A stretch of 64,000 bases of DNA from Ancylobacter sp. WKF20 (lineage in GTDB: Bacteria > Pseudomonadota > Alphaproteobacteria > Rhizobiales > Xanthobacteraceae), in the NCBI RefSeq assembly GCF_029760895.1, contig NZ_CP121679.1:2356001-2420000 (forward strand), in the 5' to 3' direction. Each line of letters begins with the position of its first letter. Positions within the stretch are counted from its first letter, which is position 1. Position numbers and translations under genes: made by a program. Below, in pieces: positions 23,486 through 49,615 of the stretch. The notes under the pieces are model-generated. The model made no database searches. It was not told the origin of the DNA and was given only the letters and a program-made list of their open reading frames with translations.

Positions 23486-23659
23486 GGTATTTAGAGACCA
23501 TATCGACCGTTGCGCGGCGCGCATGACGCGCGCCACAGTCAGACATATTTTGAAACTCGCCACCGAAAGACGCTGGGCGTATAGCTTCGCGGATAGTTTG
23601 GAGACGATCTATCTTTGCGTCTTGCATCGGCTTCCCGCCGAACCTGTCATGTAGGACTT

Positions 23660-25463: not shown

Positions 25464-25515
25464 GGGGGCACACTCGACCGGCGTTCCATGACGCGCGGCG
25501 CAAGGGAGATCACGC

Positions 25516-26577: not shown

Positions 26578-26580
26578 GCG

Positions 26581-27495
26581 ATGCGGCTCGCGGTTACCGG
26601 CACATCGGGGCAGGTCGCCCAGTCGCTCGCCCGCCATGCTGCCAGCTTGGGTGGCGAGGTTGTGTTGATCGGGCGCCCGGATTTTGATCTCGCCACGCCC
26701 GACAACGCCGCCGCCGTGTTTGCGGCCGCGCGGCCGGACGTCATCGTCTCCGCTGCCGCCTATACGGCCGTCGACAAGGCGGAAAGCGAGCCGGAACTCG
26801 CCTACCGCATCAATGCCGACGGCGCCGGCGCCGTAGCGCGCGCGGCGGCTGCGCTGAACGTGCCGGTCATTCACCTGTCCACCGATTATGTCTTCGACGG
26901 CTCGAAGACGGGCGAATGGGTGGAGGACGACGCAACCGGCCCGCTTGGCGTCTATGGCGCCTCCAAACTCGCCGGCGAGCAAGCCGTTTTGGCGGCCACC
27001 TCGAACGCGGCGATCCTGCGCGTCTCCTGGGTCTACGCACCCTTCGGCGCGAATTTCGTGCGCACCATGCTGCGCCTTGCGGAAACACGCGACAGCCTCG
27101 GCGTGGTCGCCGACCAAATCGGCCGGCCGACCTCCGCGCTCGACATCGCCAGTGCGATCTGGCAGGTGGCGGAGCAGCTGACCGCGCGCCCGCAGGAGAC
27201 GGCGCTGCGCGGTCTCTTCCACCTGCCGGCGGGCGGGCCTGCCGCCAGCTGGGCCGATTTCGCCGAGGCGATCTTTGCCGACGCGGCGCGGCGCGGTCAG
27301 AAGGCGGCAAAGGTCGGGCGCATCGGCACCGCCGACTACCCGACACCGGCGCGGCGGCCGGCCAATTCGCTGATGGATGGATCAAAGATCGCCCGCGTCT
27401 ATGGCATTAATCTCCCGGACTGGCGCCGTTCGCTAGAGGTCGTGATGGACCAACTGGCCGGCACCGCTCCGGGCAGCGGGCTGAAGAAGGATTGA
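26581..27495 (+). CDS. rfbD: dTDP-4-dehydrorhamnose reductase
   Basis: The 304-residue protein (RmlD) reduces the 4-keto sugar to dTDP-L-rhamnose. It shows the N-terminal [14 protein letters not shown], the [17 protein letters not shown] segment, LSTDYVFDG and [12 protein letters not shown]. It begins three bases after the rfbB stop and ends four bases before the rfbA start, consistent with one transcript. Confidence 0.95.
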
Positions 27496-27499
27496 GACG

Positions 27500-28372
27500 T
27501 TGAAGGGCATCATTCTCGCCGGCGGGGCCGGGACACGCCTCCATCCGATGACGCTTGTCACGTCCAAACAGATGATGCCGGTCTACGACAAGCCGATGAT
27601 CTACTACCCGCTGTCGGTGCTGATGCTGGCCGGCATACGCGACATTCTGGTGATCTCGACGCCGCACGACCTGCCGAATTTCGAGCGCCTGCTCGGCGAT
27701 GGCTCGCAGTGGGGGCTGAACCTCTCCTTCCGCGTGCAGCCCGACCCCGGCGGCCTCGCGCAGGCCTACACGATCGGCGCGGACTTCGTTGGCAACAGCC
27801 CCTCCTGCCTGATCCTCGGCGACAACATCTTCTATGGCGCTGGCCTGCAGCGGATGCTGAACGATGCGCGCAACCGGACGGATGGCGCGACGGTTTTTGC
27901 CTACCATGTCACCGACCCCGAGCGTTACGGCGTGGTCGAGTTCGACGCGTCGATGCGGGCGCTGTCGATCGAGGAAAAGCCGCTCCAGCCCAAATCCAAC
28001 TGGGCGGTGACGGGGCTTTATTTCTACGATGGCACGGTCGTCGACATCGCCGCCAATCTGAAGCCCTCGGCGCGCGGGGAGCTCGAAATCACCGACGTCA
28101 ACCGCGCCTATCTCGAGCGAAAGACGCTGTCGGTCGAGGTGATGGGGCGCGGCTATGCCTGGCTGGACACGGGCACGCCGGACAGCCTGGTGGAAGCCGC
28201 CGAATTCGTGCGCACGCTCGAGAAGCGGCAGGGCTTCAAGATCGCCTGCCCCGAAGAGATCGCCTTCCGCCAGGGCTTCATCGACGCCGCGCAATTGCAG
28301 CGACTGGCCGGCGCCTTGGGCAAGAGCGCCTATGGGCGCTATCTGGCGGCGCTCACGCACGAGAATTTCTAG
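27500..28372 (+). CDS. rfbA: Glucose-1-phosphate thymidylyltransferase
   Basis: The 290-residue enzyme (RmlA) makes dTDP-glucose, the first step of the pathway. The nucleotidyltransferase signature [16 protein letters not shown] is followed by [17 protein letters not shown] and LGDNIFYG. The start is a TTG at 27500. No better in-frame ATG exists before the signature. With rfbC, rfbB and rfbD the four-step pathway to dTDP-L-rhamnose is complete. Confidence 0.96.
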
Positions 28373-30198: not shown

Positions 30199-30396
30199 CG
30201 TTCGACCTCACATCCAGCAAAACGGAGAGGCGCTCGTTCAGTATCGGTGCGCCCATTCTGGAAAAATGATTCGCCAGCCGCGACGCATAGGAAGCATAAA
30301 CACCTATCTCAAAAAGGCGCGGGGGAACAGGCAAGATGAACCGCCCCTAGATTCCTGGACGCCTTCTTCCCTAAATTTTGAGGCAAGGAGGCCCCG

Positions 30397-30672
30397 ATGG
30401 GCAAAGCGAACTTCACCGAGGACTTCAAACGCGACGCGGTCCTTCAGATCACCGAGCGGGGCTATCCGGTTGCGGAGGTGGCGGCGCGGCTAGGGATCAG
30501 CAAGTACTCGCTCTACGAGTGGAGGAAACGGTACGGCAAGCCTGCCGCCGTGGCCCGCGATGACGATCAGGCTGCCGAGGTCCGCCGGCTGAAGCGCGAG
30601 TTGCAGCGCGTGACGGAGGAGCGCGACATCCTAAAAAAAGCGGCCGCGTACTTCGCCAAGGATGCAAAGTGA
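30397..30672 (+). CDS. IS3-family transposase OrfA (helix-turn-helix)
   Basis: The 91-residue protein has a HTH_Tnp_1 domain (FTEDFKRDAVLQITERGY, ARLGISKYSLYEWRKRY) and a leucine-zipper-like C-terminus that binds the IS ends. A run of seven A at 30633-30639 (codons cta aaa aaa) is a typical -1 frameshift site. Slippage there joins the frame of orfB. Confidence 0.92.
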   Translation: MGKANFTEDFKRDAVLQITERGYPVAEVAARLGISKYSLYEWRKRYGKPAAVARDDDQAAEVRRLKRELQRVTEERDILKKAAAYFAKDAK

Positions 30673-31544
30673 AGTACGCGTTCATCGCCGCGCATCGCCT
30701 GCAGTTTTCGATCCGCGCCATGTGTCGGTGCCTGCGTGTCCAGCCCAGCGGCTTTTACGCCTGGCTGAAGGATCCGCTGAGCAGGCGCGCTCGGGAGGAC
30801 CAACGACAGATCGAGCTGATCCGCGCGGCATGGAGCGAGAGCGGCAAGGTCTATGGCTATCGTAAGCTTCACGACGATCTGGCGGACATGGGCGAGAGCT
30901 GCTGCCCAAACCGGGTTGCGCGGCTGACGCGACTTGCCGGCATCCGGGCGCAGATCGGCTACAAGCGCCGCCCCGGCCACTATGCCGGCAAGCCGTCCCT
31001 GGCCGTCGACAACACGCTCGATCGCCGGTTCGACGTGGAGGCGCCTGACAAGGCCTGGGTGACCGACATCACCTATATCCGCACCCATGAGGGCTTCGCC
31101 TATCTGGCGGTCGTGATCGATCTTTTCTCCCGCCGCGTCGTCGGCTGGTCCATGCAGGCCCGGCAGACGACCAACGTCGTGCTTCAGGCGCTGCTGGCTG
31201 CCGTCTGGCGACGTAAGCCGAAGGAGCGTGTGTTGGTGCATTCGGACCAGGGAAGCCAGTTCACCAGCATGGAGTGGGCTTCGTTCCTGAAACACCACGA
31301 TCTGCAGCCGTCGATGAGCCGTCGCGGCAACTGCCATGACAACGCCGTCGCCGAGAGCTTTTTCAACCTGCTCAAGCGCGAGCGTATCCGCCGCAAGGTC
31401 TACCGCACGCGCGACGAGGCACGCGGGGACGTGTTCGATTACATCGAGATGTTCTACAACCCCACCCGCAAGCACGCACGGAATGGGATGCTGTCGCCCA
31501 TCGAGTTCGAACGGCAGTACAAAGCCAAAGCCGAGGGCGTCTAG
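30669..31544 (+). CDS. IS3-family transposase OrfB (DDE integrase domain)
   Basis: The 291-residue protein has an N-terminal HTH_21-like region and an rve integrase core. The DDE residues are visible in WVTDITYI, VHSDQGSQFTS and the NAVAESFFNLLK segment. It starts at a GTG overlapping the orfA stop (GTGA), but the active form is probably the OrfAB transframe product made through the A7 slippery run at 30633-30639. Confidence 0.93.
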   Translation: MKYAFIAAHRLQFSIRAMCRCLRVQPSGFYAWLKDPLSRRAREDQRQIELIRAAWSESGKVYGYRKLHDDLADMGESCCPNRVARLTRLAGIRAQIGYKRRPGHYAGKPSLAVDNTLDRRFDVEAPDKAWVTDITYIRTHEGFAYLAVVIDLFSRRVVGWSMQARQTTNVVLQALLAAVWRRKPKERVLVHSDQGSQFTSMEWASFLKHHDLQPSMSRRGNCHDNAVAESFFNLLKRERIRRKVYRTRDEARGDVFDYIEMFYNPTRKHARNGMLSPIEFERQYKAKAEGV

Positions 31545-31566
31545 AAAACGCGGGGCGGTTCAAGAT

Positions 31567-31892: not shown

Positions 31893-33350
31893 ATGCCCGT
31901 CAGCCCCGCTGAAATGCCGGCCTCGCGCCGCGTGGTCGTGGTGGACCTCGATAACACCTTGATCAAGGCTGACACGTTGCACGAGCAAGTCGCTCGGATC
32001 GTGTTTCAAAAGCCGCGGCTTCTGCCACACCTCATAGGTGCGCTGTTCAAGGGAAAGGCGGCATTCAAGGACTTCTGCGCCGAGGCGATCGTCCTTGACC
32101 CGGCCAACCTCGACACCTGCGACGAGGTACTGAGCTATCTGGCGACAGAGCGTGAGCGCGGCAGTTATCTGGTGCTGTGTACCGCCGCCGATCACCGCGT
32201 TGCCCGCCTCGTCGCCGACCATCTCGGCATTTTCGACGAGGTGATCGCCACCGAAGCTGGCCTCAATTTGAAGGGCGAGGCCAAGGCCGCCATGCTGGCG
32301 CGACGCTTCCCGCAAGGTTTCGTCTATGCGGGCGACCACGCCTCGGATCTGGTCGTATGGGCCAAGGCCGATGGCATTGTGCTGGTCGGCGTCAGCGCCA
32401 GCGTCGCCCGGCGGGCGAACGCTCTGGGAAAGCCGATTATCGCTGAATTCCGCAGCCGCGCGCAGCGCCCTCGTCCGCTGCAGGTCTGGCCGCGTGCGCT
32501 GCGCGTGCATCATTGGTCGAAGAACCTGCTGATGTTCGTGCCGTTGATCCTGGCTCACGCCTGGGGCGATCTCGGCATGGTCATCCACGCCGGGATGGGA
32601 TTTGTCCTGCTGCTGCTGATCTCCTCATCCAGTTATCTCATCAACGACATCGCCGACATCGACGCCGACCGCCGGCACCTGACCAAACGATACCGGCCAG
32701 TGGCCAGCGGCCAGTTGCCGCTGATGCAGGCGGTGCTGTTTCCAGTCCTGGTCATTCCCTGCACCTTGGTGGCGGCCTTGGTGCTGGACCCCGCCTTTGC
32801 GTTGGCTCTCGTCTCCTATCTCGTCCTCACCCTCGCCTACTCCTTCGGGCTCAAGCGTATTCCGCTGCTGGATACCTTCATCATCGCGGTCCTGTTCACG
32901 CTCCGCCTGGTCATGGGCGTCGCGCTGCTCGGAGGGCCGATGCCGATATGGCTGCTCACCTTTTCGATGTTCTTCTTCTTCTCGCTTGCCACGGCAAAGC
33001 GACATGTCGAGATCGTTCAGGCCCGCGGCGCGAAAGACAGCATGCTGAGAGGGCGCGGGTATGAGGCGGACGACTGGCCGCTGACGCTGACCTTCGGGAT
33101 CGGCTCCGGCCTGGCCTCGCTCATCATATTGGTGCTCTACATGGTGGATGAGGCGTTTCGGGCTGCGGGCTATGGACAGCCTGAATATCTCTGGGCGGTG
33201 AATCTTCTGGTGGCGATCTGGATCGGGCGAATCTGGCTTCTCACCCATCGCGGCCGCATGCATGACGACCCGGTCTCCTTCGCGCTGCGCGACTGGCCAA
33301 GCCGGTTCCTCGCCATTTGTGTTGCCGTCTTCTTCCTGGCCGCCCTGTGA
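31893..33350 (+). CDS. HAD phosphatase-UbiA prenyltransferase fusion (polyprenyl-phosphate phosphoribosyltransferase type)
   Basis: The 485-residue protein has an N-terminal HAD domain (about 12-185) with the nucleophile motif DLDNTL (Asp18, Asp20), a Lys in LKGEAK and the acidic YAGDHASD motif. About eight or nine membrane helices of the UbiA family follow, with NDIADIDAD and KRYRPVASG near residues 251-274. These motifs match decaprenyl-phosphate 5-phosphoribosyltransferase (mycobacterial Rv3806c), which loads PRPP-derived ribose-5-phosphate onto a polyprenyl phosphate. The fused HAD domain could remove the 5-phosphate. Its stop is overlapped by the DprE1-like gene (GTGA). Confidence 0.85.
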   Translation: MPVSPAEMPASRRVVVVDLDNTLIKADTLHEQVARIVFQKPRLLPHLIGALFKGKAAFKDFCAEAIVLDPANLDTCDEVLSYLATERERGSYLVLCTAADHRVARLVADHLGIFDEVIATEAGLNLKGEAKAAMLARRFPQGFVYAGDHASDLVVWAKADGIVLVGVSASVARRANALGKPIIAEFRSRAQRPRPLQVWPRALRVHHWSKNLLMFVPLILAHAWGDLGMVIHAGMGFVLLLLISSSSYLINDIADIDADRRHLTKRYRPVASGQLPLMQAVLFPVLVIPCTLVAALVLDPAFALALVSYLVLTLAYSFGLKRIPLLDTFIIAVLFTLRLVMGVALLGGPMPIWLLTFSMFFFFSLATAKRHVEIVQARGAKDSMLRGRGYEADDWPLTLTFGIGSGLASLIILVLYMVDEAFRAAGYGQPEYLWAVNLLVAIWIGRIWLLTHRGRMHDDPVSFALRDWPSRFLAICVAVFFLAAL

Positions 33351-34678
33351 GCGCGTTTCTCACCCGAACGGATATCGTCTCCTGGGGGCGCGTGATCCGG
33401 GCACCCCATCACGTGGCAAACCCGCAATTCCTCGATCAGCTACCTGGCCTGCTGGCGGAAGGAGCCACCCACGCCAACGGTGTTCTCGCCACCGGCCTGC
33501 GCCGATCCTATGGCGACACCGCTCTGAATGCCGAGGGGGCGCTGATCGAGACCCGCTCCCTGAACCGCCTCATCAGCTTCGACCCGGCAAGCGGTCATCT
33601 GGAGGCCGAGGCGGGCATCTCGATCGCCGAGTTGCTCGCCTTCGCGATACCGCGTGGTTTCTTTCTGCCGGTCACCCCCGGCACAAAATTTGTCACGCTG
33701 GGCGGAGCTGTCGCCAACGATGTGCATGGAAAGAACCATCACCGCGCCGGCACTTTCGGGCGATGGGTGCGCCGCCTCACGCTGCTGCGTTCGGATGGGT
33801 CGCAGCATGTACTCACTCCCGACGACGCGAGCGGCTTGTTCGCCGCGACCATCGGTGGGCTCGGCCTGACCGGAATTATCACCCGCGTGGCCCTTCAACT
33901 GAAGCCGATCGTCAGTTCCGACATGATCGTAGAGACGATCCCTTTCGCAGATCTCGCAGGATTTTTTGCCCTGTCGCGCGAGAGCGCGGAGACGCACGAA
34001 TACTCCGTAGCCTGGATCGATTGCCTCGCCGGCGGACGGGATCTGGGGCGGGGGCTTATGAGCCGCGCCAATCACGCCTCCGCGGGCGAACTCAAGGCCG
34101 CCAGCAAGAGTGGCCCGACGGTGCCGGTGGACATGCCGGAGTTGATGCTCAACCGTCTGTCGATCTCGGCCTTCAATAGCCTCTATTACTGGAAGGGATC
34201 GCGCAGCCGCGGGACCAGGAGTATCTCCTACGATCCCTATTTCTACCCTCTCGACGGCCTCCAGCACTGGAACCGGCTCTACGGACGGCGCGGTATGTAC
34301 CAATACCAGAGCGTGGTCCCGCCCGCGGTCGCCCATGACGCAACCGCCGCGATGCTGAAGACCATCTCAAGCGCCGGCACGGGCTCGTTTCTCGCCGTGC
34401 TCAAGGATTTCGGTGACGCGCCCTCTCCTGGCTTCCTGTCATTTCCGCGCGCCGGAACGACATTGGCGCTTGATTTCCCCAATCGTGGCGCCGAGACACT
34501 TCATCTGCTCGCGCGCCTCGACAGCATCGTCCGAGAGGCTGGCGGGCGGCTTTATCCCGCAAAGGATGGGCGTTTGCCGGCCGACCTCTTCAGGTCGGGC
34601 TATCCCGCGATGGAGAGCTTCGTGACCCATCTGGACCCGGGACTCTCCTCCTCCTTCTGGCGGCGCATGCAGGGATAG
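33347..34678 (+). CDS. dprE1: DprE1-like FAD-dependent decaprenyl-phosphoryl-ribose 2'-oxidase
   Basis: The protein of about 443 residues has the FAD_binding_4 (VAO) fold with GLRRSYGDTAL (50-60), the NDVHGKNHH flavin-contact motif (125-132), IGGLGLTG and a C-terminal ALO-like domain ending YPAKDGR (Lys406). Mycobacterial DprE1 oxidises decaprenyl-P-ribose at C2. The benzothiazinone-target cysteine of that enzyme (in NICVDFP) aligns by eye with Ala374 (TLALDFP). Start GTG at 33347 overlaps the upstream stop. DprE2 follows, so the order is that of the mycobacterial epimerase pair. Confidence 0.87.
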   Translation: MSAFLTRTDIVSWGRVIRAPHHVANPQFLDQLPGLLAEGATHANGVLATGLRRSYGDTALNAEGALIETRSLNRLISFDPASGHLEAEAGISIAELLAFAIPRGFFLPVTPGTKFVTLGGAVANDVHGKNHHRAGTFGRWVRRLTLLRSDGSQHVLTPDDASGLFAATIGGLGLTGIITRVALQLKPIVSSDMIVETIPFADLAGFFALSRESAETHEYSVAWIDCLAGGRDLGRGLMSRANHASAGELKAASKSGPTVPVDMPELMLNRLSISAFNSLYYWKGSRSRGTRSISYDPYFYPLDGLQHWNRLYGRRGMYQYQSVVPPAVAHDATAAMLKTISSAGTGSFLAVLKDFGDAPSPGFLSFPRAGTTLALDFPNRGAETLHLLARLDSIVREAGGRLYPAKDGRLPADLFRSGYPAMESFVTHLDPGLSSSFWRRMQG

Positions 34679-34680
34679 AC

Positions 34681-35430
34681 ATGGCGAACCCCAAACTCAG
34701 CGTCCTCATTCTCGGAGCTGCCTCCGGCATCGCGCAGGCCACCGCTCGCCTCTATGCCGCCGAGGGTGCGGCCTTGGTGTTGACCGGCCGCCACAAGGAA
34801 CGCCTGGACCAGATTGGCGCGGACCTCACCGTGCGCGGAGCCTCTTCCGCAACGAGTGTCGAGCTCGATTTCCTGGCAGTAGATCCTCGCTCGGCATGGC
34901 AGGAATTGTGGGCACAGCACGGCCCCTTCGACCACATCCTCATCGCCTATGGGGTACTGGGCGATCATGCGCGGGCCGAAAAAGAGCCCGGCGCTGCGCA
35001 GGACATACTGGCGGTCAACTTCACCTCGGCTGCCGCATGGTCTCTGCTGATCGCGGAAGAACTGGAGCGGCGGGGCAAGGGTTCGCTCGTCGTACTCGGC
35101 TCCGTTGCGGGGGATCGCGGGCGACGGGCCAATTACATTTACGGCGCCGCCAAAGCGGGTCTCGCGACCCTGATACAGGGGATCGCTCATCGCTTCGCCG
35201 ATAAGGGCCCGCGCGCGGTGATCGTCAAGCCGGGCCCGACGGACACGCCGATGACCGCCGGCATGACGAAGGGCGGACCGTTATGGGCGACGCCCGAGCA
35301 GGTCGCGAAAGTGGTGCGCCGGGCGGCCGACGCGGGTGGACCCGTCCAATATGCACCCGCACGCTGGCGATTGATCATGCTGATCATTGGTTTCATTCCG
35401 TCGCGCATCTTCAATAAGATGAACCTGTAA
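34681..35430 (+). CDS. dprE2: DprE2-like short-chain dehydrogenase (decaprenyl-phospho-2-keto-ribose reductase)
   Basis: The 249-residue classical SDR has LGAASGIAQATARLY at the NAD(P) site, a serine in VVLGSVAGDRG, the catalytic pair YGAAK and a hydrophobic C-terminus (LIMLIIGFIPSRIF) that may contact the membrane, as in DprE2. With DprE1 it would epimerise polyprenyl-P-ribose to polyprenyl-P-D-arabinose. Two bases separate it from the DprE1-like stop, and its TAA overlaps the next ATG (TAATGA). Confidence 0.85.
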   Translation: MANPKLSVLILGAASGIAQATARLYAAEGAALVLTGRHKERLDQIGADLTVRGASSATSVELDFLAVDPRSAWQELWAQHGPFDHILIAYGVLGDHARAEKEPGAAQDILAVNFTSAAAWSLLIAEELERRGKGSLVVLGSVAGDRGRRANYIYGAAKAGLATLIQGIAHRFADKGPRAVIVKPGPTDTPMTAGMTKGGPLWATPEQVAKVVRRAADAGGPVQYAPARWRLIMLIIGFIPSRIFNKMNL

Positions 35431-36359
35431 TGAGCAAAATCGTCGTCACCGGCGCTGCCGGACTGGTTGGACAGAACCTGATTGCACGGCTCAAGCAGCG
35501 GCCGGATGTCACGCTGGTGGGCATCGACAAGCACCCGGCGAATGTTGCGCTGTTCCGCAAGGTGCATCCGGACGTCCCGATCATCGAGGCAGATCTGTCT
35601 TTGCCCGGCGACTGGATGGAAGCCTTGAAGGGCGCGGATGCCGTTGTCATCAATCAGGCCCAGATTGGCGGGCTGGATGAGGGTGAGTTCGTCGCCAACA
35701 ATGTCACGGCGACGCGCCACATTCTCGCGGCCATGGAACAACATGGCGTGGGCTATTTCGTCGGCATCTCGTCTTCGGTGGTGAACTCGCGCGCTGATGA
35801 TTTCTACACGCGCTCCAAGACGGCACAGGAGAAGCTCTTCCTCGCGAGCCCGATCCCGCATGTTATCCTGCGCCCCACCTTGATGTTCGGCTGGTTCGAT
35901 CGCAAGCACCTCGGCTGGTTACGGCGCTTCATGGACCGCACGCCGGTCTTCCCGATACCCGGCGACGGCAACTATCTGCGCCAGCCGCTTTATGTCGGCG
36001 ACTTTGTCTCGGTCATTGCTGCCAGCCTCGCCACGCGGGCGACCGGAACCTATGACATCTCCGGGCATGAGAAGGTCAGCTATGGCGCCTTGATCGGCAT
36101 GATCCATGACACGGTCAAACCGCGCGCCCGCCTCGTGCATATTCCCTATCGCATGTTCTGGCTCCTCCTGTGGCTCTATGCACGCTTCAGCCGCACGCCC
36201 CCCTTCACCACAAGCCAACTGGAAGCGCTCGTGATCCCTGAGGAGTTTCCGGTGACCGACTGGCCGGGCGCGTTCGGGGTTGCACGCACGCCGCTGAAAC
36301 AGGCGCTGGCCGAAACCTATCTCGATCCGGTCTACGGCCAGATCGTTCTTGAGTTCTGA
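35430..36359 (+). CDS. NAD-dependent epimerase/dehydratase family protein
   Basis: The 309-residue extended SDR has VTGAAGLVGQNLIARL at the N-terminus, the GISSSVVNS strand, YTRSK as the Tyr-Lys pair, and a short C-terminal region with an aromatic hydrophobic patch (RMFWLLLWLYARF). It presumably modifies a nucleotide- or lipid-linked sugar. Its ATG overlaps the DprE2-like stop by one base and its end overlaps the neighbourhood of the next start, so it is a fixed part of the operon. The mycobacterial arabinose pathway has no such gene, and the substrate is unknown. Confidence 0.85.
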   Translation: MSKIVVTGAAGLVGQNLIARLKQRPDVTLVGIDKHPANVALFRKVHPDVPIIEADLSLPGDWMEALKGADAVVINQAQIGGLDEGEFVANNVTATRHILAAMEQHGVGYFVGISSSVVNSRADDFYTRSKTAQEKLFLASPIPHVILRPTLMFGWFDRKHLGWLRRFMDRTPVFPIPGDGNYLRQPLYVGDFVSVIAASLATRATGTYDISGHEKVSYGALIGMIHDTVKPRARLVHIPYRMFWLLLWLYARFSRTPPFTTSQLEALVIPEEFPVTDWPGAFGVARTPLKQALAETYLDPVYGQIVLEF

Positions 36360-36369
36360 GGGGGTCTGC

Positions 36370-37650
36370 TTGACACGGGTCGTGGTGATCGGAGCCGGCC
36401 TGATGGGCCTTGCCGCAGCCTGGGAGGCTGTCAGGCGCGGCCATTCGGTCGATCTGGTGGAGGCCGACGTGCACGCCGGCGGCATGGCCGCGCATTTCGA
36501 TTTCGACGGCGTGTCGATCGAGCGCTTCTATCATTTCGTCTGCAAGTCGGACGCGCCCACCTTTGAGATGATGGCTGAACTCGGCATCGGCGACAAAATG
36601 CGGTGGCGCGACACGTCCATGGCCTATCGTATGGCTGGAGCGCTCCACAAATGGGGCGACCCGGTCTCGCTACTGACCTTCCCGCACCTGACCCTCGTGG
36701 AGAAATTCCGCACGGGACTGCAGATGTTCCTCGCCACCAAGGCGCGCAGCTTCGCGTCCATCGAACATCTGACATCCCGCCAATGGATCGAGCGCGGATC
36801 CGGCAAGGCCGTCTACGCCAAAATGTGGAAGCGGCTTCAGGAGCTCAAATTCTACGAATATGCCGACCATGTCTCAGCCTCCTGGATCGCGACGCGGGTG
36901 CGGCGCATCGGCAATTCCCGTCGCAGCCTGTTCCATGAGCAACTCGGCTATATCGAGGGTGGGTCGCAGACTCTCGTGGACGCCCTGGTCAGCGCATTCA
37001 TGGCCAAGGGCGGGCGTTTGCACCTCGCGACCCCCGCGGAACAGGTTCTGACAGCCGACGGGCGCGTCACTGGCGTGCGGGCGGGTGGCAAGGAATTCCC
37101 CGCCGACGCCGTGATCTCAACTGTGCCGACGCCGCTGATCAGCACCCTCGTCCCCGCTCTACCGGAGGCCGACAAGAACCGCTACGACGCCATCGAGAAC
37201 ATCGGCGTGGTGTGCTTGTTGTTCAAACTCAGGAAGTCGGTGAGCCCGCATTTCTGGATCAATATCGTCGAGCCAGACATCGAGATACCCGGGATCATCG
37301 AGTTCTCCAATCTGCGCCCGCTACCGCAGACAATGGTATACGTGCCCTATTACATGCCGGTTACGCATCCGAAGTGGAGCTCGCCAGATGCAGCGTTCAC
37401 GGCGGAAGCTTTCGGCTACATCAAGCGGCTGAATCCGGCGATCACCGATGATGACCTGATCGACGCCAAGGTAGGCCGCCTGCGTTACGCTCAACCCGTC
37501 TGCGGTCCGAACTTCCAACAGATGATCCCACCCGTGCAAACTGCCCTTGCCGGGCTGCAGATTGCCGACACCTGTTATTACTACCCCGAGGATCGGGGCA
37601 TCGCCGAAAGCATCCGTCTGGGCCGCGCCATGGCGCAGGTCATCCGATGA
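36370..37650 (+). CDS. FAD-dependent amine-oxidase-family oxidoreductase
   Basis: The 426-residue protein has an FAD dinucleotide fold at the very start (VVVIGAGLMGLAAAWEA), a HAGGMAAHF glutathione-reductase-like patch, GGSQTLVDALV and a C-terminal FAD segment with TCYYYPEDRGIAESIRLG. It belongs to the amine oxidase / protoporphyrinogen-oxidase-like group, which also includes UDP-galactopyranose mutase relatives and desaturases. In glycan operons such enzymes act on sugars or lipid carriers, but no reaction can be assigned. I start at the TTG at 36370, after a GGGG ribosome-like site, since the family begins exactly there. Another TTG lies at 36349. Confidence 0.82.
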   Translation: MTRVVVIGAGLMGLAAAWEAVRRGHSVDLVEADVHAGGMAAHFDFDGVSIERFYHFVCKSDAPTFEMMAELGIGDKMRWRDTSMAYRMAGALHKWGDPVSLLTFPHLTLVEKFRTGLQMFLATKARSFASIEHLTSRQWIERGSGKAVYAKMWKRLQELKFYEYADHVSASWIATRVRRIGNSRRSLFHEQLGYIEGGSQTLVDALVSAFMAKGGRLHLATPAEQVLTADGRVTGVRAGGKEFPADAVISTVPTPLISTLVPALPEADKNRYDAIENIGVVCLLFKLRKSVSPHFWINIVEPDIEIPGIIEFSNLRPLPQTMVYVPYYMPVTHPKWSSPDAAFTAEAFGYIKRLNPAITDDDLIDAKVGRLRYAQPVCGPNFQQMIPPVQTALAGLQIADTCYYYPEDRGIAESIRLGRAMAQVIR

Positions 37651-37669
37651 ACATTTGACAGGAGCTCAT

Positions 37670-38335
37670 ATGGACGACCTCGCCAGTATTTATCGTGAGC
37701 GTTTCGCGAATACCGGACTGGAAAAGCGTCAACGGGTCTGGCGCATCCTCTGTAACGACTTCTTTTCGACGATGATCAAGCCGACCGACACGGTTCTCGA
37801 TCTGGCGTGCGGCTATGGGGAATTCATCAATAATATTAAGGCAGGCCGCAAATTCGCCGTCGATCTGAACCCGGATTCACCCGCACATCTGGCGGCGGAC
37901 GTATCCTTTGCCAGCGCGTCGGCCAATGATCTCTTCTTCATTCCCGACAACACGCTCGACGTCGCGTTCACCTCCAACTTCCTGGAGCACCTGCCGGATA
38001 AGGCGGCGTGCAACGCGGTACTCAAGGAGGTTCTTCGCAAGCTCAAGCCCGGTGGCCGCTTCATCATCCTCGGACCCAATATCCGCTATGCCTACAAGGA
38101 ATACTGGGACTATTACGACCACTACCTCCCGCTGTCGCACCTGTCGCTCAGCGAGGGTCTGCTGATCAATGGCTATGAGCTCGAGCGCGTCATTGACCGG
38201 TTCCTGCCTTACACAATGAACAACAGTACACCGACGCATGACCTGCTGATCCGCGCTTACCTCGCCCTGCCATTGGCCTGGAAAATCATGGGCAAGCAGT
38301 TCCTCGTCGTGGCGCGCAAGCGGAGCGCTTCGTGA
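37670..38335 (+). CDS. Class I SAM-dependent methyltransferase
   Basis: The 221-residue protein has the SAM motif I VLDLACGYGEF (about 44-54), an acidic AVDLNP motif II, FTSNFLEHLPD and LRKLKPGGRFIILGPN. These place it in the Methyltransf_11/23 group. A clear AGGAG precedes the ATG at 37670. Its stop is overlapped by gtrA (GTGA). It is probably an O-methyltransferase for a sugar or lipid-linked intermediate, inferred from context. Confidence 0.87.
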   Translation: MDDLASIYRERFANTGLEKRQRVWRILCNDFFSTMIKPTDTVLDLACGYGEFINNIKAGRKFAVDLNPDSPAHLAADVSFASASANDLFFIPDNTLDVAFTSNFLEHLPDKAACNAVLKEVLRKLKPGGRFIILGPNIRYAYKEYWDYYDHYLPLSHLSLSEGLLINGYELERVIDRFLPYTMNNSTPTHDLLIRAYLALPLAWKIMGKQFLVVARKRSAS

Positions 38336-38730
38336 CGTCACGCTTCCTGTTGTTTCTTGTGGCCGGCGCGATAGCCGCGACCGTCAATATCGTTGCTCGC
38401 ATCCTCCTGAATTATGTCGTTCCTTTTGAGGTCGCCGTCGCACTTGCCTTCCCGATAGCCCTCACTGTCGGGTTCTTTCTCAATCGGCATTATGTTTTCG
38501 ATGCGGATACTGGAGCCGTCGGGGGACAGTATGCCCGCTTCCTCATGGTGAACCTCGTCGCTCTCGGCCACGTGTGGGTGATCAGCGTGGGCCTCGCCGG
38601 CTGGGTGCTGCCAGCGATCGGATACGACTACCATCGCGAACTCGTCGCGCACGCCATAGGCGTCGCCAGCCCCATCTTCACCAGTTATTTCCTGCACAAG
38701 TTTTTCACGTTCCGCACGAGGCGGATCTGA
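38332..38730 (+). CDS. GtrA-family small membrane protein
   Basis: The 132-residue protein has four hydrophobic helices and the GtrA features FLNRHYVFD between helices 2 and 3 and SYFLHKFFTFR at the end. GtrA proteins are linked to flipping or presenting polyprenyl-phosphate sugars. The mycobacterial homologue Rv3789 sits next to dprE1 and dprE2, so its presence here at the end of a dprE-type operon supports a lipid-linked pentose pathway. The GTG start overlaps the methyltransferase stop. Confidence 0.88.
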   Translation: MTSRFLLFLVAGAIAATVNIVARILLNYVVPFEVAVALAFPIALTVGFFLNRHYVFDADTGAVGGQYARFLMVNLVALGHVWVISVGLAGWVLPAIGYDYHRELVAHAIGVASPIFTSYFLHKFFTFRTRRI

Positions 38731-38804: not shown

Positions 38805-41800
38805 TCAGTCGCTTCTACTGATTTCTGCCGGACCTGTCCGGTGCTCAGCGACAAGATTTTGATAGGTATTGGCATATTCACGAGCCAATGCGACCATGTC
38901 GTAACTGCTGCCCAAATGCTTTGCCGCGTCTGAATAACGGGCACGTTGAGCATCATCAATCATCGCCTGCATCGCGTCTGCCAGGACGGCAACGAAGCGC
39001 TGATCGTCAGCATCTGCGGGGATAACAACTCCTGCAGCATCCTGCCCTTCGGGAGAAACCATGTTGCTGATCTCCCCAACGTCGCTGGCGACAACGGGGC
39101 GGCCACACTGAAGTGCTTGAATGATGCAAAGAGGGAACGATTCACCGGGGAACCGCGTGGGAACGACCGCGACGTCACTCAGTCGGTACAGGCCGGCGAT
39201 GTGCGATTGATACCCGAGAAAAGTGATGTCTGGATCGGCTCCGTACAGGGGGGCCAGTCGCTCATGTTCCTCGCCATCACCGCAGAGCAAAAGATGCAGC
39301 GATCGACCCGCATGCGCCTTACGCACGCTCTGGAACGCCTTGATGCACGGCTCCCACCCCTTGGACGGAATGCCGCGAGCAACAAAAGTGAAGACGACGG
39401 CATCCTCGCGGATGCCGAGTTCGGCGCGCGTCTCCGGAAAGGGTCGTTCATCGAGCGGCATGGCATTGGGCAGCTTCTGAAACCTGCTCGCCGGTACCTG
39501 CAATTCCCTGAGGAATGTACGATTTCTTTCCGCCGTGTAGACGAAATGATCGACCTTGGCCGCCAGCTCAGCAAGTCTCTCGCGTTCCAGATCCGACGCT
39601 TCATAGGAACCGTGCAGGGTCACGAGGTAGGGTACACCCCCCTGCATATTCCACTGTTCGAAGAAATGAATTTCGGAACCCACATTATGAGAATGGACCA
39701 GAGTAACTCCAGCCTCCCTCAAGAACCGGTCGACACCATATTTTTGTATGACCTCTTTACTGTAGACCGGGATCGAGGGGTTCAGTGCAGATCTAAGTTC
39801 AGGATTTACATGGCTCAATTCAAAGCAAACGAACGATACGTTCCATCCTAAATCAAAGAGACTATTCGCCAAATTTATCGGAAAAAGCTCGCCGCCGCCC
39901 GGCACAAAACCGTATGACGCAATCAAGACGTGATTCTTGATCCGCTTTTGGCGACGTAGCTTCGCGTGATTCAGCAGGCCATCGAGAGGTCCAAATTTCT
40001 TATCAAGCTCGAGCCATGTAAATTGCCCAAGCATGTTCTCGTAGAATTTTCGCAACGTTTCATCCAACACCTCCCACGTGCTGCAAAGCTTAAGCATGAA
40101 TCGCTCAAGCTCTTGATAGAAATCAGCACGATATATACCGGTCGAAGATGTGTTATTTCCATGCCGACGAAAATAGGATACGGCATCAGGCCGCCAGGCA
40201 ATTTGTCCACCAGCCGAGATCTGCAAATATAGGAACCAGTCGCCGGCGACGCGATAGGTTTTCGCTTCGCTCCAGACTTCTGGGCAAATATCGACACGCC
40301 GGAAAAGGCAGCCCCCAACATTAGCAATAACGTTATTGACCCCAAAGCCTTTCGCGAACCAATCAGCCGCAGGCCGGACAAGGCGGCGCTCCCAAATGCC
40401 GGCTTCGGCGCCCTCGCGATAAGCGTCCATACCGTCCTGAAAATTACCCCCTTCGTCGACGTACAGTATGCGACCGAAGGCAATCATCACGCTCATATCG
40501 ACGAATTCGCCGTACAACTTCTCCACAAAATCGGGCTCACAGAAATCATCGCTCTCGCAGATCCATATCAGATCTCCGCGGCTGCTCTCGACACCCTTCT
40601 GCCATTGATGGAACACGCCCCCCGAATTGACGCTATTCAGAACACATCGAATGCGATCAGGGTACTCGGCGCAGTATGATTGAATGATGCTCTGGCTACC
40701 GTCCGTTGAGCTATCATCCAAAATGATGATTTCGATATTTGAGTATGTCTGAGCGAGGATCGATTCGATACGCTGCGGTAAGAAGCGCGCGTGATTGTAA
40801 TTGGGGACGATGGCGCTGATTTTCGGCCGGAAACTGCTCACACCGCCAGGTGGTGCGGCCTGCCGCCGTTCAGCTTTGCCATGAAGCACCCAGTGAATGA
40901 ACGGATTGATGCCCCCTTCCCGAATGTCCGGCCAGCGATCGAGATAGTAGGACGTGACGAAATCCGCTTGCGGATTCCGTCCCTCTCGCCAGCCATGGGT
41001 CAAGAAGTGCTGAAAGGGATTCAACCCGGCCGCAGCGACGTCCGGGTACGTATCGAGATAATACGACGGATCGAAAGCCGCGACGACCCGCTCGATGTCT
41101 TCTTGTGACAACCCTTCAAGTCCGGTTGGAAGCGAAGGGACTGCTGAGGACTTAAAACGGGCCTGCAGAGATTTGGGAATCCACTTCTGCCACGACTTAC
41201 GACGCTTGATTGAATGGGCCTGCTGCCCGGCAACGACCAACGCATTATGCACGGTGGCCTTCTGCAAGCTAATGGCCGCAGCGTCTACTGGTCGCGCACG
41301 CGGAAGACTGTCCCTATAGTTCTGGCTGAACAAAGCAAGCAGCCACCTAGACCGCATCAAAATATCCTGCGGAAGCGTCGCTCCGCCGAACTCGGATGAG
41401 GTCGTGTGACCAACGTCCCGCTGGCGCTCGAGCAGATCCGCCGTGATCCATCGGCTCCCGAGCTGCGCGAAGAAATCCTGCACAGCATTGGTGTCGTCTG
41501 TCTCCAAACCTGCGAGGAGGCCCATAATGTCCGGCGCCTCACGGCCGACGGCGAGGACGCCGAGCCCGTGCCCGTGCAGAAACTCAAAGGACGGATAGAT
41601 AGTGCGCAGCTCCTCCCAGAGCCGCCACACACCGAAGCCTCGCTCGCGAACATTGATGTCGTGGAACAGGATGACACCCCGCTCGGACATTTTGGGTAGC
41701 CAGCCCTCGAAGTCGGCTTTCACCGCCTCGTAGGTGTGCAGGCCGTCGATATGCAGGAGATCGACAAAGCCGTCGGCAAAATAGGGCAGCGCCTCATCGA

Positions 41801-42158
41801 AGGTCATGCGCATCAGTTCGGCGAACGAGCCAAAGCGCGTGGCGATGAAGGGCTGCAGATCGGCAAACACGCCCTCACCATAACGGCCCGCATGATCGTC
41901 ACCTTGCCAGGTGTCGACGGCATAGCAGCGACAGCTCAGATGCTGGCGCAGCACGGCCTCGCAGAAAGCGGCGAACGAGACGCCGTTATGCGTGCCCAAC
42001 TCCACGATGCAGCGCGGTCGGAGCTCCGAGACTATCCAGTGAGCGAAGGGAACATGCCCCCACCAGGCGCTCATTGATCCCGTTCGCGTCGGCATCCACA
42101 ACGCCGGGTGGCCTTGGAGCCGGACGATATCGGCAATCTGCGTCTCGTCGAGAGGCAT
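38805..42158 (-). CDS. Four-part glycan assembly protein: methyltransferase, spacer repeats, GT2 and GT4
   Basis: The 1117-residue protein has several domains. Residues about 20-215 are a class I methyltransferase (Methyltransf_24-like: IVELGTHNGVSFAAF, LLHIDGLHTYEA, LFHDINVRERG). Residues about 365-435 hold two copies of a short motif often linked to glycosyltransferases (SYYLDTYPDVAAAGLNPFQH and the matching SYYLDRWPDIREGGINPFIH). Residues about 447-680 form a GT2 domain (SAIVPNYNHARFL, ILDDSSTDGS, CESDDF). Residues about 765-1090 form a GT4 domain (IASYGFVPGGGELF, FVARGIPSKG, ESFPLCIIQALQCGRPVV). It could methylate and extend a glycan from one polypeptide. The middle of the gene is visibly richer in A+T than its surroundings. 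Confidence 0.87.
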   Translation of the reverse strand: MPLDETQIADIVRLQGHPALWMPTRTGSMSAWWGHVPFAHWIVSELRPRCIVELGTHNGVSFAAFCEAVLRQHLSCRCYAVDTWQGDDHAGRYGEGVFADLQPFIATRFGSFAELMRMTFDEALPYFADGFVDLLHIDGLHTYEAVKADFEGWLPKMSERGVILFHDINVRERGFGVWRLWEELRTIYPSFEFLHGHGLGVLAVGREAPDIMGLLAGLETDDTNAVQDFFAQLGSRWITADLLERQRDVGHTTSSEFGGATLPQDILMRSRWLLALFSQNYRDSLPRARPVDAAAISLQKATVHNALVVAGQQAHSIKRRKSWQKWIPKSLQARFKSSAVPSLPTGLEGLSQEDIERVVAAFDPSYYLDTYPDVAAAGLNPFQHFLTHGWREGRNPQADFVTSYYLDRWPDIREGGINPFIHWVLHGKAERRQAAPPGGVSSFRPKISAIVPNYNHARFLPQRIESILAQTYSNIEIIILDDSSTDGSQSIIQSYCAEYPDRIRCVLNSVNSGGVFHQWQKGVESSRGDLIWICESDDFCEPDFVEKLYGEFVDMSVMIAFGRILYVDEGGNFQDGMDAYREGAEAGIWERRLVRPAADWFAKGFGVNNVIANVGGCLFRRVDICPEVWSEAKTYRVAGDWFLYLQISAGGQIAWRPDAVSYFRRHGNNTSSTGIYRADFYQELERFMLKLCSTWEVLDETLRKFYENMLGQFTWLELDKKFGPLDGLLNHAKLRRQKRIKNHVLIASYGFVPGGGELFPINLANSLFDLGWNVSFVCFELSHVNPELRSALNPSIPVYSKEVIQKYGVDRFLREAGVTLVHSHNVGSEIHFFEQWNMQGGVPYLVTLHGSYEASDLERERLAELAAKVDHFVYTAERNRTFLRELQVPASRFQKLPNAMPLDERPFPETRAELGIREDAVVFTFVARGIPSKGWEPCIKAFQSVRKAHAGRSLHLLLCGDGEEHERLAPLYGADPDITFLGYQSHIAGLYRLSDVAVVPTRFPGESFPLCIIQALQCGRPVVASDVGEISNMVSPEGQDAAGVVIPADADDQRFVAVLADAMQAMIDDAQRARYSDAAKHLGSSYDMVALAREYANTYQNLVAEHRTGPAEISRSD

Positions 42159-42356
42159 TCTAGCACTCCAAGGGGCACATCGCTGTTACACAACAGGATG
42201 GATGCAGCCGCAACCCAATCCATCCAGCACGACACATGAATAAACGCGCGCGTGCATCAAGGGAAGCTACGCTTTCAGGAGCGGCTCTGAAATTTTCTAC
42301 CTTTTAAAACAGCCAAACACTTACACTCGGCAAAAATGTAACCGCCCGCGACAGAT

Positions 42357-44735
42357 TTACCACGTGGTATTTGCCACGCGCAGGCCCGCGACGCTGAGCC
42401 CGGTCTGGCGAGCGGCAAATGGGATCAGCCGCTCGAGCGCATGAAGAAGGGTGCCGTCGTCAGGCGCCGGTTCTTCGGGGTAGTCCTCAACGGTCAGATG
42501 AAGATCCAGCAGAGGCTTCAATGCCGCCGGGCGCGCCCAGAACATGGTGCCCAGGGGAAAATCGAACTGCATGGGCAAAGGCTGATCAATGCCCATGCGT
42601 CGCGCGAGCGTCTGGGCAAGCTCCAGATTCGCGTTCCAGCCCACCACATGCGGGTCTTCAGCCATCAGCAGGCCGAGCGATGCATCCTCGGCGAAGGCGG
42701 CGATCGCCGTGTCGACCATGGCGAAGCGCCCACCCACCAGATTCTCGAACAAAAAGTCGCGCCAGCGCTCGCCCATCTGGGCGTCGGTAGAGTGACTGCG
42801 CTTGCCATGCACGTGACCGATCACGTCATAGTCCCCGCTGGAAATGACGTCCGCGAGCCCCGTGAGCAGCGGGCCGATGTCGCGCCCGCGGTTCGGCATA
42901 AGCCGAACCTGCGACGGCCCTTGATAGGCGGCGAGCGCCGAACGCAATTGGTCGGCCTTCGCCTCCGTGTCGCAGGTCAGAATGAGGTGCGGCCGGCTCT
43001 GGTTCGCCGCCAGGCGCGCCAGCAGATCGTCAACCAGCTCAGGATAGTGGAAATGGCCGTGGAGAGCGGTTCTTAGCCCTGCAGCGCGGCCGGCGTCGCC
43101 ACGGGCAGCTGGAAGGGGCGAATAGACGCGCCGCGACCACGCACCAGCGGGCCGCCCGTTCTCGATCCAGTGCGCCAGGGGATCGCGTCCATTGGCGAGA
43201 CACGCGTCCTCGTGAGCAAGCGCATAAATCCCCGGATGGAAGCCCGCACAGGCACGCCGGTAGGGTCGGGGCCGATTGGCATGTGCGAGTTCCACGGTCG
43301 ATCCACCCCACAGCCGCCAGCGGATCAACGCTGTCTGGGCCAGTTCGGCGCGGCTGGCTGTCTCTTCACCGGGCGCAAGGACGAAGGACGGATCGAGCGC
43401 ATCCGCCGCCGCGATCAATTCCGCATCGCGTGTGTTACGGCGCGCCGCCGCGGCCCGCCCCAACGCGTCGAGACGCTCGATATAGGTCGGCATATCGAAC
43501 GTTGCCTGGGCGAGGCGCTGCACCGACGTCTTCAGCTCGACCAGTTCGCTGCCTTCACTGGCCAGCCGACAAATGGCCACCGCCGCAGCGTGCGCATCGA
43601 GGTGGGGGATTACCAGCTGGCTGGTGGCGGGATCGGAAGCAAGGATTTCCGCCGTGCCGGCAGCGCCTTCGAAGCACAAGACCGGTACGCCAAAGGTCAT
43701 CGCATCAATGGCGACGTTCGGCTGCGGGTCCAGGCGCGAACTGAGCAGAAACAGATCGGCCTGCGGGTAGAGAGCGTCGAGATCATCGACCGGAGGGCGC
43801 ATGATGAGGCTGTCGCCGAGGTCGGATCGCTTGATCTGCTCATCGAGATAGATCGAGTAGCCGAGCTCCCGCTGCGGGTCGAACCCGTCGCCAATCCAGA
43901 CGAACAGCAAAGGAAGGTCAGGCCGCAGGCGGCGCGCCGCGGCGGCGGTCGCGACGAAGAGTTCGACGCCCTTTCGCAGGTGAACCGAGCCCGCGCCGAG
44001 CACGACAAACGCTTCCTCGCGACCTTTCGGTCGCAGTGGCGCCGGCGGGCGCCGTTCCGCGGCGGCACTCCCTTTTGGGACGGGGATCTCCGACCGTCCT
44101 TGCGGAATGAGGTGCACGCCCGCGCGTCGTTCGAGCCCCTGATAGTAGGTGGCGGCCGATTCAATGGTCATCTGCGAGGAGAACACGACCTCATCCGCCC
44201 ACCCGAACACGTCCTCAAGCTTGGAGAGCGGACGCGTATAGGCGGCGAACTCGTGGAAGAGTGCCACCACAGGGACGCCGGCGCGCGCGAAATGCGGCAC
44301 GAGAGAGTGGGTCTCGACACTGTTCGCAATGACATAGAGCGGGCGGTAATTCGCCACGAGAGCGTGCGCGATGGCATCCGCACTTCGCGGCTTGCGCCGC
44401 AACCAGAGGAGAGCCGCCGTCGTGAAGGTGGCAGCACTGCGCAAGTCGGCCTCGATCTCGCCCCCGCCGAACGGCACACAAATGACCTGATAACGGCCGA
44501 CGAGATCGCGGATGATGTTCCAGCCGAGGATCGGAGCGCCTGTTCGTGAGGCTTCGTGCAACAGCACGAGCACGACATCGCGCGGATCGCGCGGGTCGCG
44601 CTCACCGAGCAGGCGAGGAACCAGGTAGCGCGAAACGAAGCTTGATCGCCCGAGGCGAGAGGCCATCAGCTTGCGAAAGATGCCGCGCACTCGGCCCTTT
44701 CTGAAGAAGATGGGGTTCAATCCGCGAGCCGGCAT
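42357..44735 (-). CDS. GT4 glycosyltransferase fused to RgpF-type rhamnan synthesis domain
   Basis: The protein of about 792 residues has two main parts. The first (about 50-430) is a GT4/GT-B glycosyltransferase with LLHEASRTGAPILGWN, GAGSVHLRKGVELF and the nucleotide-binding RLDPQPNVAIDAMTFGVPVL. The second (about 560-790) is an RgpF domain with FHYPELVDDLL, MPNRGRDIGPLL, GHVHGKRS and FPLGTMFWARPAAL, parallel to the stand-alone RgpF at 23660. The enzyme probably adds sugars to a rhamnose-containing glycan. ATG at 44735 is preferred over a GTG at 44738. Confidence 0.85.
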   Translation of the reverse strand: MPARGLNPIFFRKGRVRGIFRKLMASRLGRSSFVSRYLVPRLLGERDPRDPRDVVLVLLHEASRTGAPILGWNIIRDLVGRYQVICVPFGGGEIEADLRSAATFTTAALLWLRRKPRSADAIAHALVANYRPLYVIANSVETHSLVPHFARAGVPVVALFHEFAAYTRPLSKLEDVFGWADEVVFSSQMTIESAATYYQGLERRAGVHLIPQGRSEIPVPKGSAAAERRPPAPLRPKGREEAFVVLGAGSVHLRKGVELFVATAAAARRLRPDLPLLFVWIGDGFDPQRELGYSIYLDEQIKRSDLGDSLIMRPPVDDLDALYPQADLFLLSSRLDPQPNVAIDAMTFGVPVLCFEGAAGTAEILASDPATSQLVIPHLDAHAAAVAICRLASEGSELVELKTSVQRLAQATFDMPTYIERLDALGRAAAARRNTRDAELIAAADALDPSFVLAPGEETASRAELAQTALIRWRLWGGSTVELAHANRPRPYRRACAGFHPGIYALAHEDACLANGRDPLAHWIENGRPAGAWSRRVYSPLPAARGDAGRAAGLRTALHGHFHYPELVDDLLARLAANQSRPHLILTCDTEAKADQLRSALAAYQGPSQVRLMPNRGRDIGPLLTGLADVISSGDYDVIGHVHGKRSHSTDAQMGERWRDFLFENLVGGRFAMVDTAIAAFAEDASLGLLMAEDPHVVGWNANLELAQTLARRMGIDQPLPMQFDFPLGTMFWARPAALKPLLDLHLTVEDYPEEPAPDDGTLLHALERLIPFAARQTGLSVAGLRVANTTW

Positions 44736-47682: not shown

Positions 47683-47698
47683 GACCGGGGACGCGCGG

Positions 47699-48793: not shown

Positions 48794-48800
48794 GGCACCT

Positions 48801-49565: not shown

Positions 49566-49571
49566 CGCTGC

Positions 49572-49596: not shown

Positions 49597-49615
49597 AGCC
49601 TGATAGGTGTTCAGC

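Follow-up and report, generated by a model that had tools for sequence, protein, structure and literature searches.

Lipid-linked pentose systems and the Ancylobacter operon

Bacterial systems building pentofuranose residues on a polyprenyl phosphate have been described from several sources. In Citrobacter, a fusion of HAD and UbiA domains makes lipid-linked ribofuranose, as shown biochemically, and one short-chain dehydrogenase/reductase (SDR) decides xylofuranose over ribofuranose; the same source, of 2024, assigned homologues of DprE1 and DprE2 to arabinofuranose glycans, points to systems of greater complexity in Xanthomonas and Bacillus, which have several candidate epimerases or GT-C type glycosyltransferases, and mentions a phage-encoded pentofuranose system (PMC11127046). 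The noe genes have been tied to D-arabinose on Nod factors (PMC5080398, PMC2443382). The present study concerns an operon of seven open reading frames (ORFs) on the forward strand of Ancylobacter sp. WKF20, found at 31893..38730 of a window of 64,000 nucleotides—the whole stretch of DNA analysed—that covers positions 2356001-2420000 of the 4.63-Mb single-contig genome. The genes, designated g1 to g7, would encode, in this order, a HAD–UbiA fusion, a DprE1-like oxidase, a DprE2-like SDR, an extended SDR, an FAD oxidoreductase (FADox), a methyltransferase and a GtrA-family protein (Table 1), neighbouring ORFs overlapping or being separated by at most 19 bases. A preliminary description, made from the sequence alone, had recognized seven coupled genes here, and all the ORFs were confirmed where it had placed them.

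Based on the results presented below, it appears, with moderate confidence, that the product of the operon is a tailored, polyprenyl-phosphate-linked pentose that serves to decorate a rhamnose-rich surface polysaccharide. The core, i.e. g1–g3 together with GtrA, is a system of a known kind, since a HAD–UbiA plus DprE1/E2 route is described for Gram-negatives in PMC11127046; the novelty that the preliminary description had seen in the operon as a whole therefore does not extend to the core and is confined to the pair g4 and g5. We propose, tentatively, that g4 and g5 are a movable pair converting polyprenyl-phosphate-D-arabinofuranose to a pentose donor new to lipid-linked pathways, which with g6 would also be O-methylated. 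By title and abstract, PMC11127046 alone came close to the combination of a g4–g5 pair with lipid-linked arabinose in a literature search outside which most subscription papers lay.

With the three-component O-antigen system of Citrobacter youngae O1/O2 the locus would have in common a HAD–UbiA synthase, an epimerisation on the lipid donor, a flippase and a GT-C transferase, the last being a candidate here (PMC11127046). The presumed flippase is a GtrA protein here, the flippase of the Citrobacter system being a MATE protein, and the O2 system has a single SDR epimerase, leading from ribose to xylose (PMC11127046). Unlike Citrobacter, the operon contains DprE1/E2 homologues, a conserved extra SDR and an FAD oxidoreductase, as well as an optional methyltransferase. 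Concerning the mycobacterial decaprenyl-phospho-arabinose pathway, homologues of Rv3806c, DprE1 and DprE2 are shared, the mycobacterial GtrA protein Rv3789 lying nearby, and we know of no counterparts of g4 and g5 there. The phosphatase is a fused HAD domain in the operon, whereas the mycobacterial Rv3807c is separate and unrelated (PMC11127046).

As to the noeCHOP type known from Azorhizobium and Rhizobium IRBG74, it was compared through a locus of Sinorhizobium alkalisoli near nodA/nodB (L116); common to this type and the operon are UbiA, DprE1 and DprE2, with a membrane protein in the place of noeP and, in L116, also GtrA. The order in L116 is UbiA, GtrA, DprE1, DprE2 and membrane protein, with no g4, g5 or g6, and its UbiA protein has no HAD match, unlike the fused g1. 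Since this noe-type locus is devoid of g4 and g5 and the noe genes are tied to D-arabinose, plain D-arabinose probably does not need these two genes, which supports a further step catalysed by them. In L116, GtrA is encoded at 5567-5986, between UbiA and DprE1; for this reason, noeN of Rhizobium IRBG74—which follows noeC and precedes noeH in the notation noeCNHOP and for which a phosphatase function has been proposed (PMC5080398)—may, by analogy, be a GtrA protein.

Family assignment of the encoded proteins

The protein g1 combines HAD and UbiA domains (Pfam) with nine transmembrane-like segments (simple hydropathy count), and its 543 bits against NF006088/PRK08238 (NCBIfam cut-off 351) place it among the HAD–UbiA fusions known as polyprenyl phosphoribose synthases (PPPRS). 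Its best solved structure is a decaprenyl-phosphate phosphoribosyltransferase (PDB 8j8j, E 1e-24), the NDxxDxxxD motif being aligned, and prenyltransferase models outside the phosphoribosyltransferases reach 57 bits at most (NCBIfam). The top NCBIfam model for g2 is DprE1 (NF053785, 379.5 bits, equivalog cut-off 500), models of the sugar/lactone oxidase type reach 40 bits at most, and the best solved-structure match is DprE1 as well (E 5e-74). Neither protein thus groups with the unrelated prenyltransferases or oxidases that the preliminary description had considered as the alternative; in addition, the ALO domain (PF04030) has no match in the whole genome of the strain. The SDR g3 scores 246 bits against PRK07102/NF005489 (cut-off 267) and 183.8 bits against DprE2/NF053786 (equivalog cut-off 250), both from NCBIfam, its best solved structure being DprE2 (E 3e-34) with YxxxK retained. 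For GtrA, g7 reaches 53.9 bits against PF04138 (gathering score 26.1). The Pfam, NCBIfam and solved-structure matches thus agree with the lipid-linked D-arabinose donor proposed earlier, and g1–g3 very likely make membrane-lipid-linked D-arabinose by a mycobacterium-like route; the fused phosphatase domain of g1 had escaped the preliminary description, as had the probable transferase gene dealt with in the last section.

In the alignment of g2 with DprE1 (PDB chain u21141), Y60, H132, K134, K367 and K418 are retained, of which Y60, H132, K134 and K418 are presumably active-site residues; the substitutions are Tyr314 to Phe, Asn385 to Thr and Cys387 to Ala. If Cys387 is the benzothiazinone target, as we assume, the alanine at this position would be expected to confer natural insensitivity to covalent inhibitors. 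It should be noted that g2 has a GTG start in a 4-bp overlap with g1 and that an upstream TTG at 33317 is likewise open.

The extended SDR g4 belongs to the Pfam family Epimerase and also matches the 3-beta-HSD family, its best solved structures being NDUFA9 subunits (E 2e-10). The site SSS...YxxxK is intact, with S114-S116, Y126 and K130 invariant in 30 sequences. As for g5, its score of 490.7 bits against PRK07233/NF005560 exceeds the curated cut-off of 252, the family being named 'hypothetical protein' in NCBIfam; its nearest named families there are PRK07208 and HpnE, and the models of phytoene desaturase are matched weakly. The HpnE model TIGR03467 gives 73.3 bits, below its cut-off of 283. 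In a rough profile comparison, with two sequences on the side of HpnE (hydroxysqualene dehydroxylase) and six on the side of UDP-galactopyranose mutase, one of these with a doubtful start, g5 aligned over 360 columns with the former and over 229 N-terminal columns with the latter; the GLF domain (PF03275) had no match in g5 at E 0.001 (Pfam). With this alignment pattern, a redox reaction on a sugar or lipid becomes more likely and a mutase less so. The nearest named relative among the matches listed is a protein of Ancylobacter sp. SL191 (97% identity), and g5 may start at the TTG at 36349 or at that at 36370, its homologues starting near the second one.

Association with DprE1 and the proposed pathway

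In a comparison of 57 FADox loci—including the near-copies L013/L018, L011/L012/L014 and L030/L043—genes were counted from 250 bits for FADox, 150 for DprE1 and g4, 120 for g1, 100 for DprE2 and g6, and 40 for GtrA. The six genes other than the methyltransferase gene occur together in 42 of the loci, Alpha-, Beta- (L113) and Gammaproteobacteria (L021) being included, so that the grouping is not due to chance. The methyltransferase is found in 7 of the 57 loci, one of them on a Burkholderia plasmid, and in none of 21 loci with DprE1 only, the latter being a chosen subset of 13 of 30 FADox-less genomes from the class-wide sample described below and 8 of 56 plasmid records. The earlier view that the three extra enzymes point to a further modification of the pentose is thus supported in part: g4 and g5 are conserved companions of DprE1, whereas g6, which may act on the pentose, is an optional part of the system.

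The sister genome G018 keeps a 43-residue fragment of g6; there (L094:8446-8966) the end of the operon is altered, GtrA being 77% identical and g1–g5 95–98% identical to those of the window. The module of the Burkholderia stagnalis plasmid (L113), which includes the methyltransferase, has genes for an isonitrile synthase and a sugar-transferase-like protein in its vicinity, so that the acceptor there could be a secondary metabolite. GtrA is present in 49 of the 57 loci; the idea that it goes with FADox only was abandoned, since a Pfam search found it directly beside DprE1 in 5 of the 13 FADox-less genomes and it is also annotated in L116, L118, L119 and L120, which the BLAST threshold had missed (0 of 21).

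A scan of public genomes with g5 yielded 46 loci, and after the omission of a spurious one (L046, 25% match) 45 were counted. A DprE1-like gene lies within about 10 kb in 34 of them and elsewhere in the genome for nine of the other 11, so that 43 of the 45 have DprE1 in the locus or the genome; the search for unlinked DprE1 covered 13 genomes and gave a match in 11, L002 and L023 being already linked. At the thresholds used, g4 was found in 40 loci, GtrA in 37 and a UbiA-type protein in 34. In the Acidobacteriaceae L024, L026 and L027, the neighbour of FADox is a related membrane protein, assigned by Pfam as PMT-like in the case of L024, and DprE1 is located elsewhere in the genome.

Among 61 relatives, the strain itself included, nine have a close g5 (E ≤6e-177, the next match having 5e-19). 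DprE1 lies beside it in eight of these, namely G000, G018, G021, G055, G012, G003, G046 and G035 (the last with the coordinates of L009), and on another contig in G030 (coordinates of L003). The class-wide sample of 289 genomes, again with the strain itself, contained DprE1 in 32, a UbiA-type protein in 27, and g4 and a close g5 in two each; both genomes with close FADox, one of them that of the strain, have DprE1, and 30 of the 32 DprE1 genomes are without close FADox. Concerning plasmids, eight records match g5, and DprE1 accompanies it on each of the seven in which the identity reaches 47% or more; the eighth, from Embleya (30%), is not among the 60 listed of the 63 plasmid records with DprE1. 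Taken together, g4 and g5 hardly occurred without DprE1; the hosts of both are Alpha-, Beta- and Gammaproteobacteria, and in the Acidobacteriota only g5 was found. No phage-borne copy of g1 turned up in the collection searched (E 1e-10).

It should be pointed out that a spread of the module to Streptomyces and Nostoc, considered at one stage, was withdrawn. The records concerned, L001 (named Nostoc favosum) and L002 (named Streptomyces sp. AcH 505), have 50.4% and 54.6% G+C, the usual values being about 41% for Nostoc and about 72% for Streptomyces, and their module genes are mostly 63–72% identical to those of the window (the exceptions being g1 with 43% and GtrA with 46% in L002, and GtrA with 48% in L001), so that contamination or recent transfer is likely; both stay in the locus counts without being taken as cyanobacterial or actinomycete evidence.

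With respect to evolution, the pair g4–g5 resembles a movable cassette of tailoring enzymes, joined to or lost from the D-arabinose donor route repeatedly, a reading suggested by the clustering of the FADox label on a tree of 67 DprE1 proteins (46 with and 21 without FADox). The label changes 8 times, 7 of the changes being forced by supported branches, versus 18 for shuffled labels, none of 500 shuffles being as low as 8, in a sampling that was not random, the FADox loci having been picked by FADox and the labels of eight plasmid rows having been read from the plasmid without its chromosome. Three Methylobacterium loci have g4-g5-g7 as a separate unit, which is divergent from g1-g2-g3. Across the 42 loci with six core genes, the mean identity is 59% for g4 and g5, 41% for g1, 50% for g2 and 46% for g3, and the distance correlations—which arise from shared ancestry alone, too—are 0.87 for g2-g3, 0.70 for g4-g5 and 0.53 for g2-g5, the range being 0.53–0.55 for g5 with g1–g3 versus 0.75–0.87 within g1–g3.

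From the families and gene associations we infer the following reactions and their order. The synthase g1 would transfer 5-phosphoribose from phosphoribosyl pyrophosphate to (undeca)prenyl phosphate, its HAD domain removing the 5-phosphate; g2 would oxidise C2 and g3 reduce it with inversion, giving the D-arabinofuranosyl donor, which g4 and g5 would convert to a further-altered pentose. In some lineages g6 may O-methylate the pentose, g7 would flip the donor, and in the periplasm the GT-C-like protein encoded near the operon would add the pentose to the glycan. What g4 and g5 produce might be, for example, a C2/C3-inverted lyxofuranose, a pentose in pyranose form or of the L series, or a pentose that has been oxidised or deoxygenated. 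Reasoning purely by analogy, an epimerisation by a single SDR like Citrobacter ORF13 after DprE1/E2 would give lyxofuranose, a sugar that, according to PMC11127046, occurs in no solved structure. A crude motif filter revealed no SDR of the xylose type adjoining the UbiA–HAD genes of L103–L109. With the two genes, the lipid-linked pentose pathway seems to have an additional branch; solving their role would name the sugar donor and bear on the question of multiple candidate epimerases raised in PMC11127046, the operon also offering soil-bacterial relatives of the drug target DprE1 and genes for glycoengineering.

Several points weigh against this pathway. DprE1 was not found in the FADox genomes L001, the contig of which starts within the DprE2 gene, and L039, a metagenome-assembled genome with the locus on a contig of 8.6 kb, and a distant relative of FADox (30%), the third g5 match of the class-wide sample, occurs in G121, a genome without a DprE1 match. 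A genome-wide search for g4, covering 15 genomes with a match in 11, gave none in the FADox genomes L024, L026 and L027 (Acidobacteriaceae) and L022, and g4 and g5 are therefore not an obligatory pair. The 57 loci were gathered by FADox searches and are not independent, and in eight of the 21 FADox-less rows, those from plasmids, FADox is ruled out on the plasmid only. Both g2 and g3 stay under the NCBIfam cut-offs for DprE1 and DprE2, so that they are said here to work like these enzymes without being filed as those equivalogs; GtrA is not specific to FADox loci; and in profile g5 is further from the sole sugar enzyme compared than from HpnE, which acts on prenyl lipids, a finding that fits a lipid substrate, too. 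To our knowledge, no reaction has been assigned to any PRK07233 protein, and the literature matches listed hold no sugar analysis or named glycan structure for Ancylobacter.

These points leave room for competing explanations. The donor may carry plain D-arabinofuranose, with g4, g5 and g6 serving a different sugar of this polysaccharide and being merely co-inherited, as would suit a window that is a large glycan cluster, the variability of g6 and of the gene order, and the lower distance correlations of g5 with g1–g3; the finding of DprE1 with 43 of the 45 FADox, even where unlinked and in clusters of varying make-up from Proteobacteria and Acidobacteriota, makes a shared second sugar less likely, and we consider this explanation improbable. 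That g4 and g5 modify the polyprenyl carrier—by oxidation, saturation and reduction of, e.g., the alpha-isoprene unit, yielding a dedicated arabinose carrier—also seems unlikely to us. It would agree with the nearly end-to-end alignment of g5 with HpnE, with its weak phytoene desaturase matches, and with the matches of g4 to NDUFA9 and the 3-beta-HSD family, which are lipid-facing or lipid-using SDRs, but a carrier enzyme need not be tied to one sugar, whereas nearly all FADox genomes examined have DprE1 and most DprE1 genomes of the class-wide sample (30 of 32) do without close g5, other lipid-linked sugar routes not having been searched for. The sugar is thus preferred over the lipid as the substrate because g5 tracks one sugar pathway and not the common carrier.

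Very unlikely, in our opinion, is a role of g5 resembling UDP-galactopyranose mutase, in which the lipid-linked furanose would become a pyranose and g4 would then epimerise C4 to give an L-xylose donor. A redox-neutral flavin reaction of this sort would explain the g5 genomes without a g4 match, and in a Ralstonia O-polysaccharide of L-rhamnose and N-acetylglucosamine a minority of the repeats bear beta-L-xylopyranose (PMC10450222). The lack of a GLF match and the restriction of the mutase alignment to the N-terminal columns, however, weaken this role to that of a minor rival, and no Ralstonia FADox was seen among the matches listed (best 120 of 5003, best 120 of 7988, and 8 of 8 for plasmids). 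A link to L-xylose through Xanthomonas or Ralstonia was likewise dropped; the absence of FADox of either genus from the matches listed decides nothing either way.

Neighbouring genes and the candidate transferase

Of the three components of pentofuranose systems, the synthase and GtrA are present, and the candidate for the transferase is the putative GT-C type protein encoded upstream of the operon on the opposite strand (Table 1). It has no Pfam match and a weak, sub-threshold one to TIGR03663 (21 bits, cut-off 126). Its homologues lie beside the module in L094 (83% identity), L097 (58%), L045 (44%), L042 (42%) and L031, L032 and L034 (29–30%), and the protein is likely to be the periplasmic GT-C pentosyltransferase of the module. 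In some of the remaining FADox loci, the large membrane-type proteins in the vicinity are different ones, those of L017 and L024 being PMT-like.

Table 1 Features of the operon and its surroundings in the window
Feature	Position	Strand	Basis
Rhamnan synthesis protein F-like gene	23615..24898	+	PF05045, 143 bits
dTDP-rhamnose genes (rmlC-, rmlB-, rmlD-, rmlA-like)	24909..28372	+	dTDP_sugar_isom, GDP_Man_Dehyd/Epimerase, RmlD_sub_bind, NTP_transferase
Putative GT-C type glycosyltransferase, 524 aa	28624..30198	-	About 10 hydrophobic segments (simple hydropathy count), module-linked homologues
Insertion element, IS3 type	30337..31562	+	ORFs 30397-30672 and 30669-31544; Pfam HTH_Tnp_1, rve
g1, HAD phosphatase fused to UbiA-type polyprenyl-phosphate 5-phosphoribosyltransferase	31893..33350	+	Pfam, NCBIfam, PDB
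g2, DprE1-like FAD oxidase (predicted undecaprenyl-phosphate-ribose 2'-oxidation)	33347..34678	+	NCBIfam, DprE1 structures
g3, DprE2-like SDR (predicted 2'-keto reductase)	34681..35430	+	NCBIfam, DprE2 structure
g4 (SDRe), extended SDR, putative tailoring enzyme	35430..36359	+	Pfam Epimerase; TAATG overlap with g3
g5 (FADox), PRK07233 FAD oxidoreductase, amine oxidase/HpnE superfamily, putative tailoring enzyme	36349..37650	+	NF005560
g6, class I S-adenosylmethionine-dependent methyltransferase	37670..38335	+	Pfam Methyltransf_11
g7, GtrA-family protein, presumed flippase	38332..38730	+	PF04138; GTG start, 4-bp overlap with g6
Multidomain glycosyltransferase and RgpF-like glycosyltransferase (probable backbone enzymes)	38805..44738	-	Glycos_transf_2, Methyltransf_24, Glycos_transf_1; RgpF

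The candidate transferase gene is separated from the operon by an insertion element of about 1.2 kb; in the sister genome G018 (L094), the transferase gene starts about 465 bp from g1. The element is bounded by terminal inverted repeats (30337-30366 and 31533-31562, 80% complementary), and it was named IS3 type by inspection and by similarity to a transposase of L112 annotated as IS3. Its bases 30380-31560 are present in five identical copies in the genome, and the element has therefore moved recently. Lying between divergent genes, it may alter the expression of both the operon and the transferase gene.

The operon is surrounded by two RgpF-like proteins, the dTDP-rhamnose genes and the multidomain glycosyltransferase, and on a plasmid of Agrobacterium salinitolerans rfbA and a rhamnan synthesis F protein are followed by the six core genes. 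From these neighbours and this association, the acceptor is probably a rhamnose-rich surface polysaccharide. The glycan genes are followed in the window, at 46729-52431, by genes for a periplasmic binding protein, an FecCD permease, an ABC ATPase and a TonB-dependent receptor.

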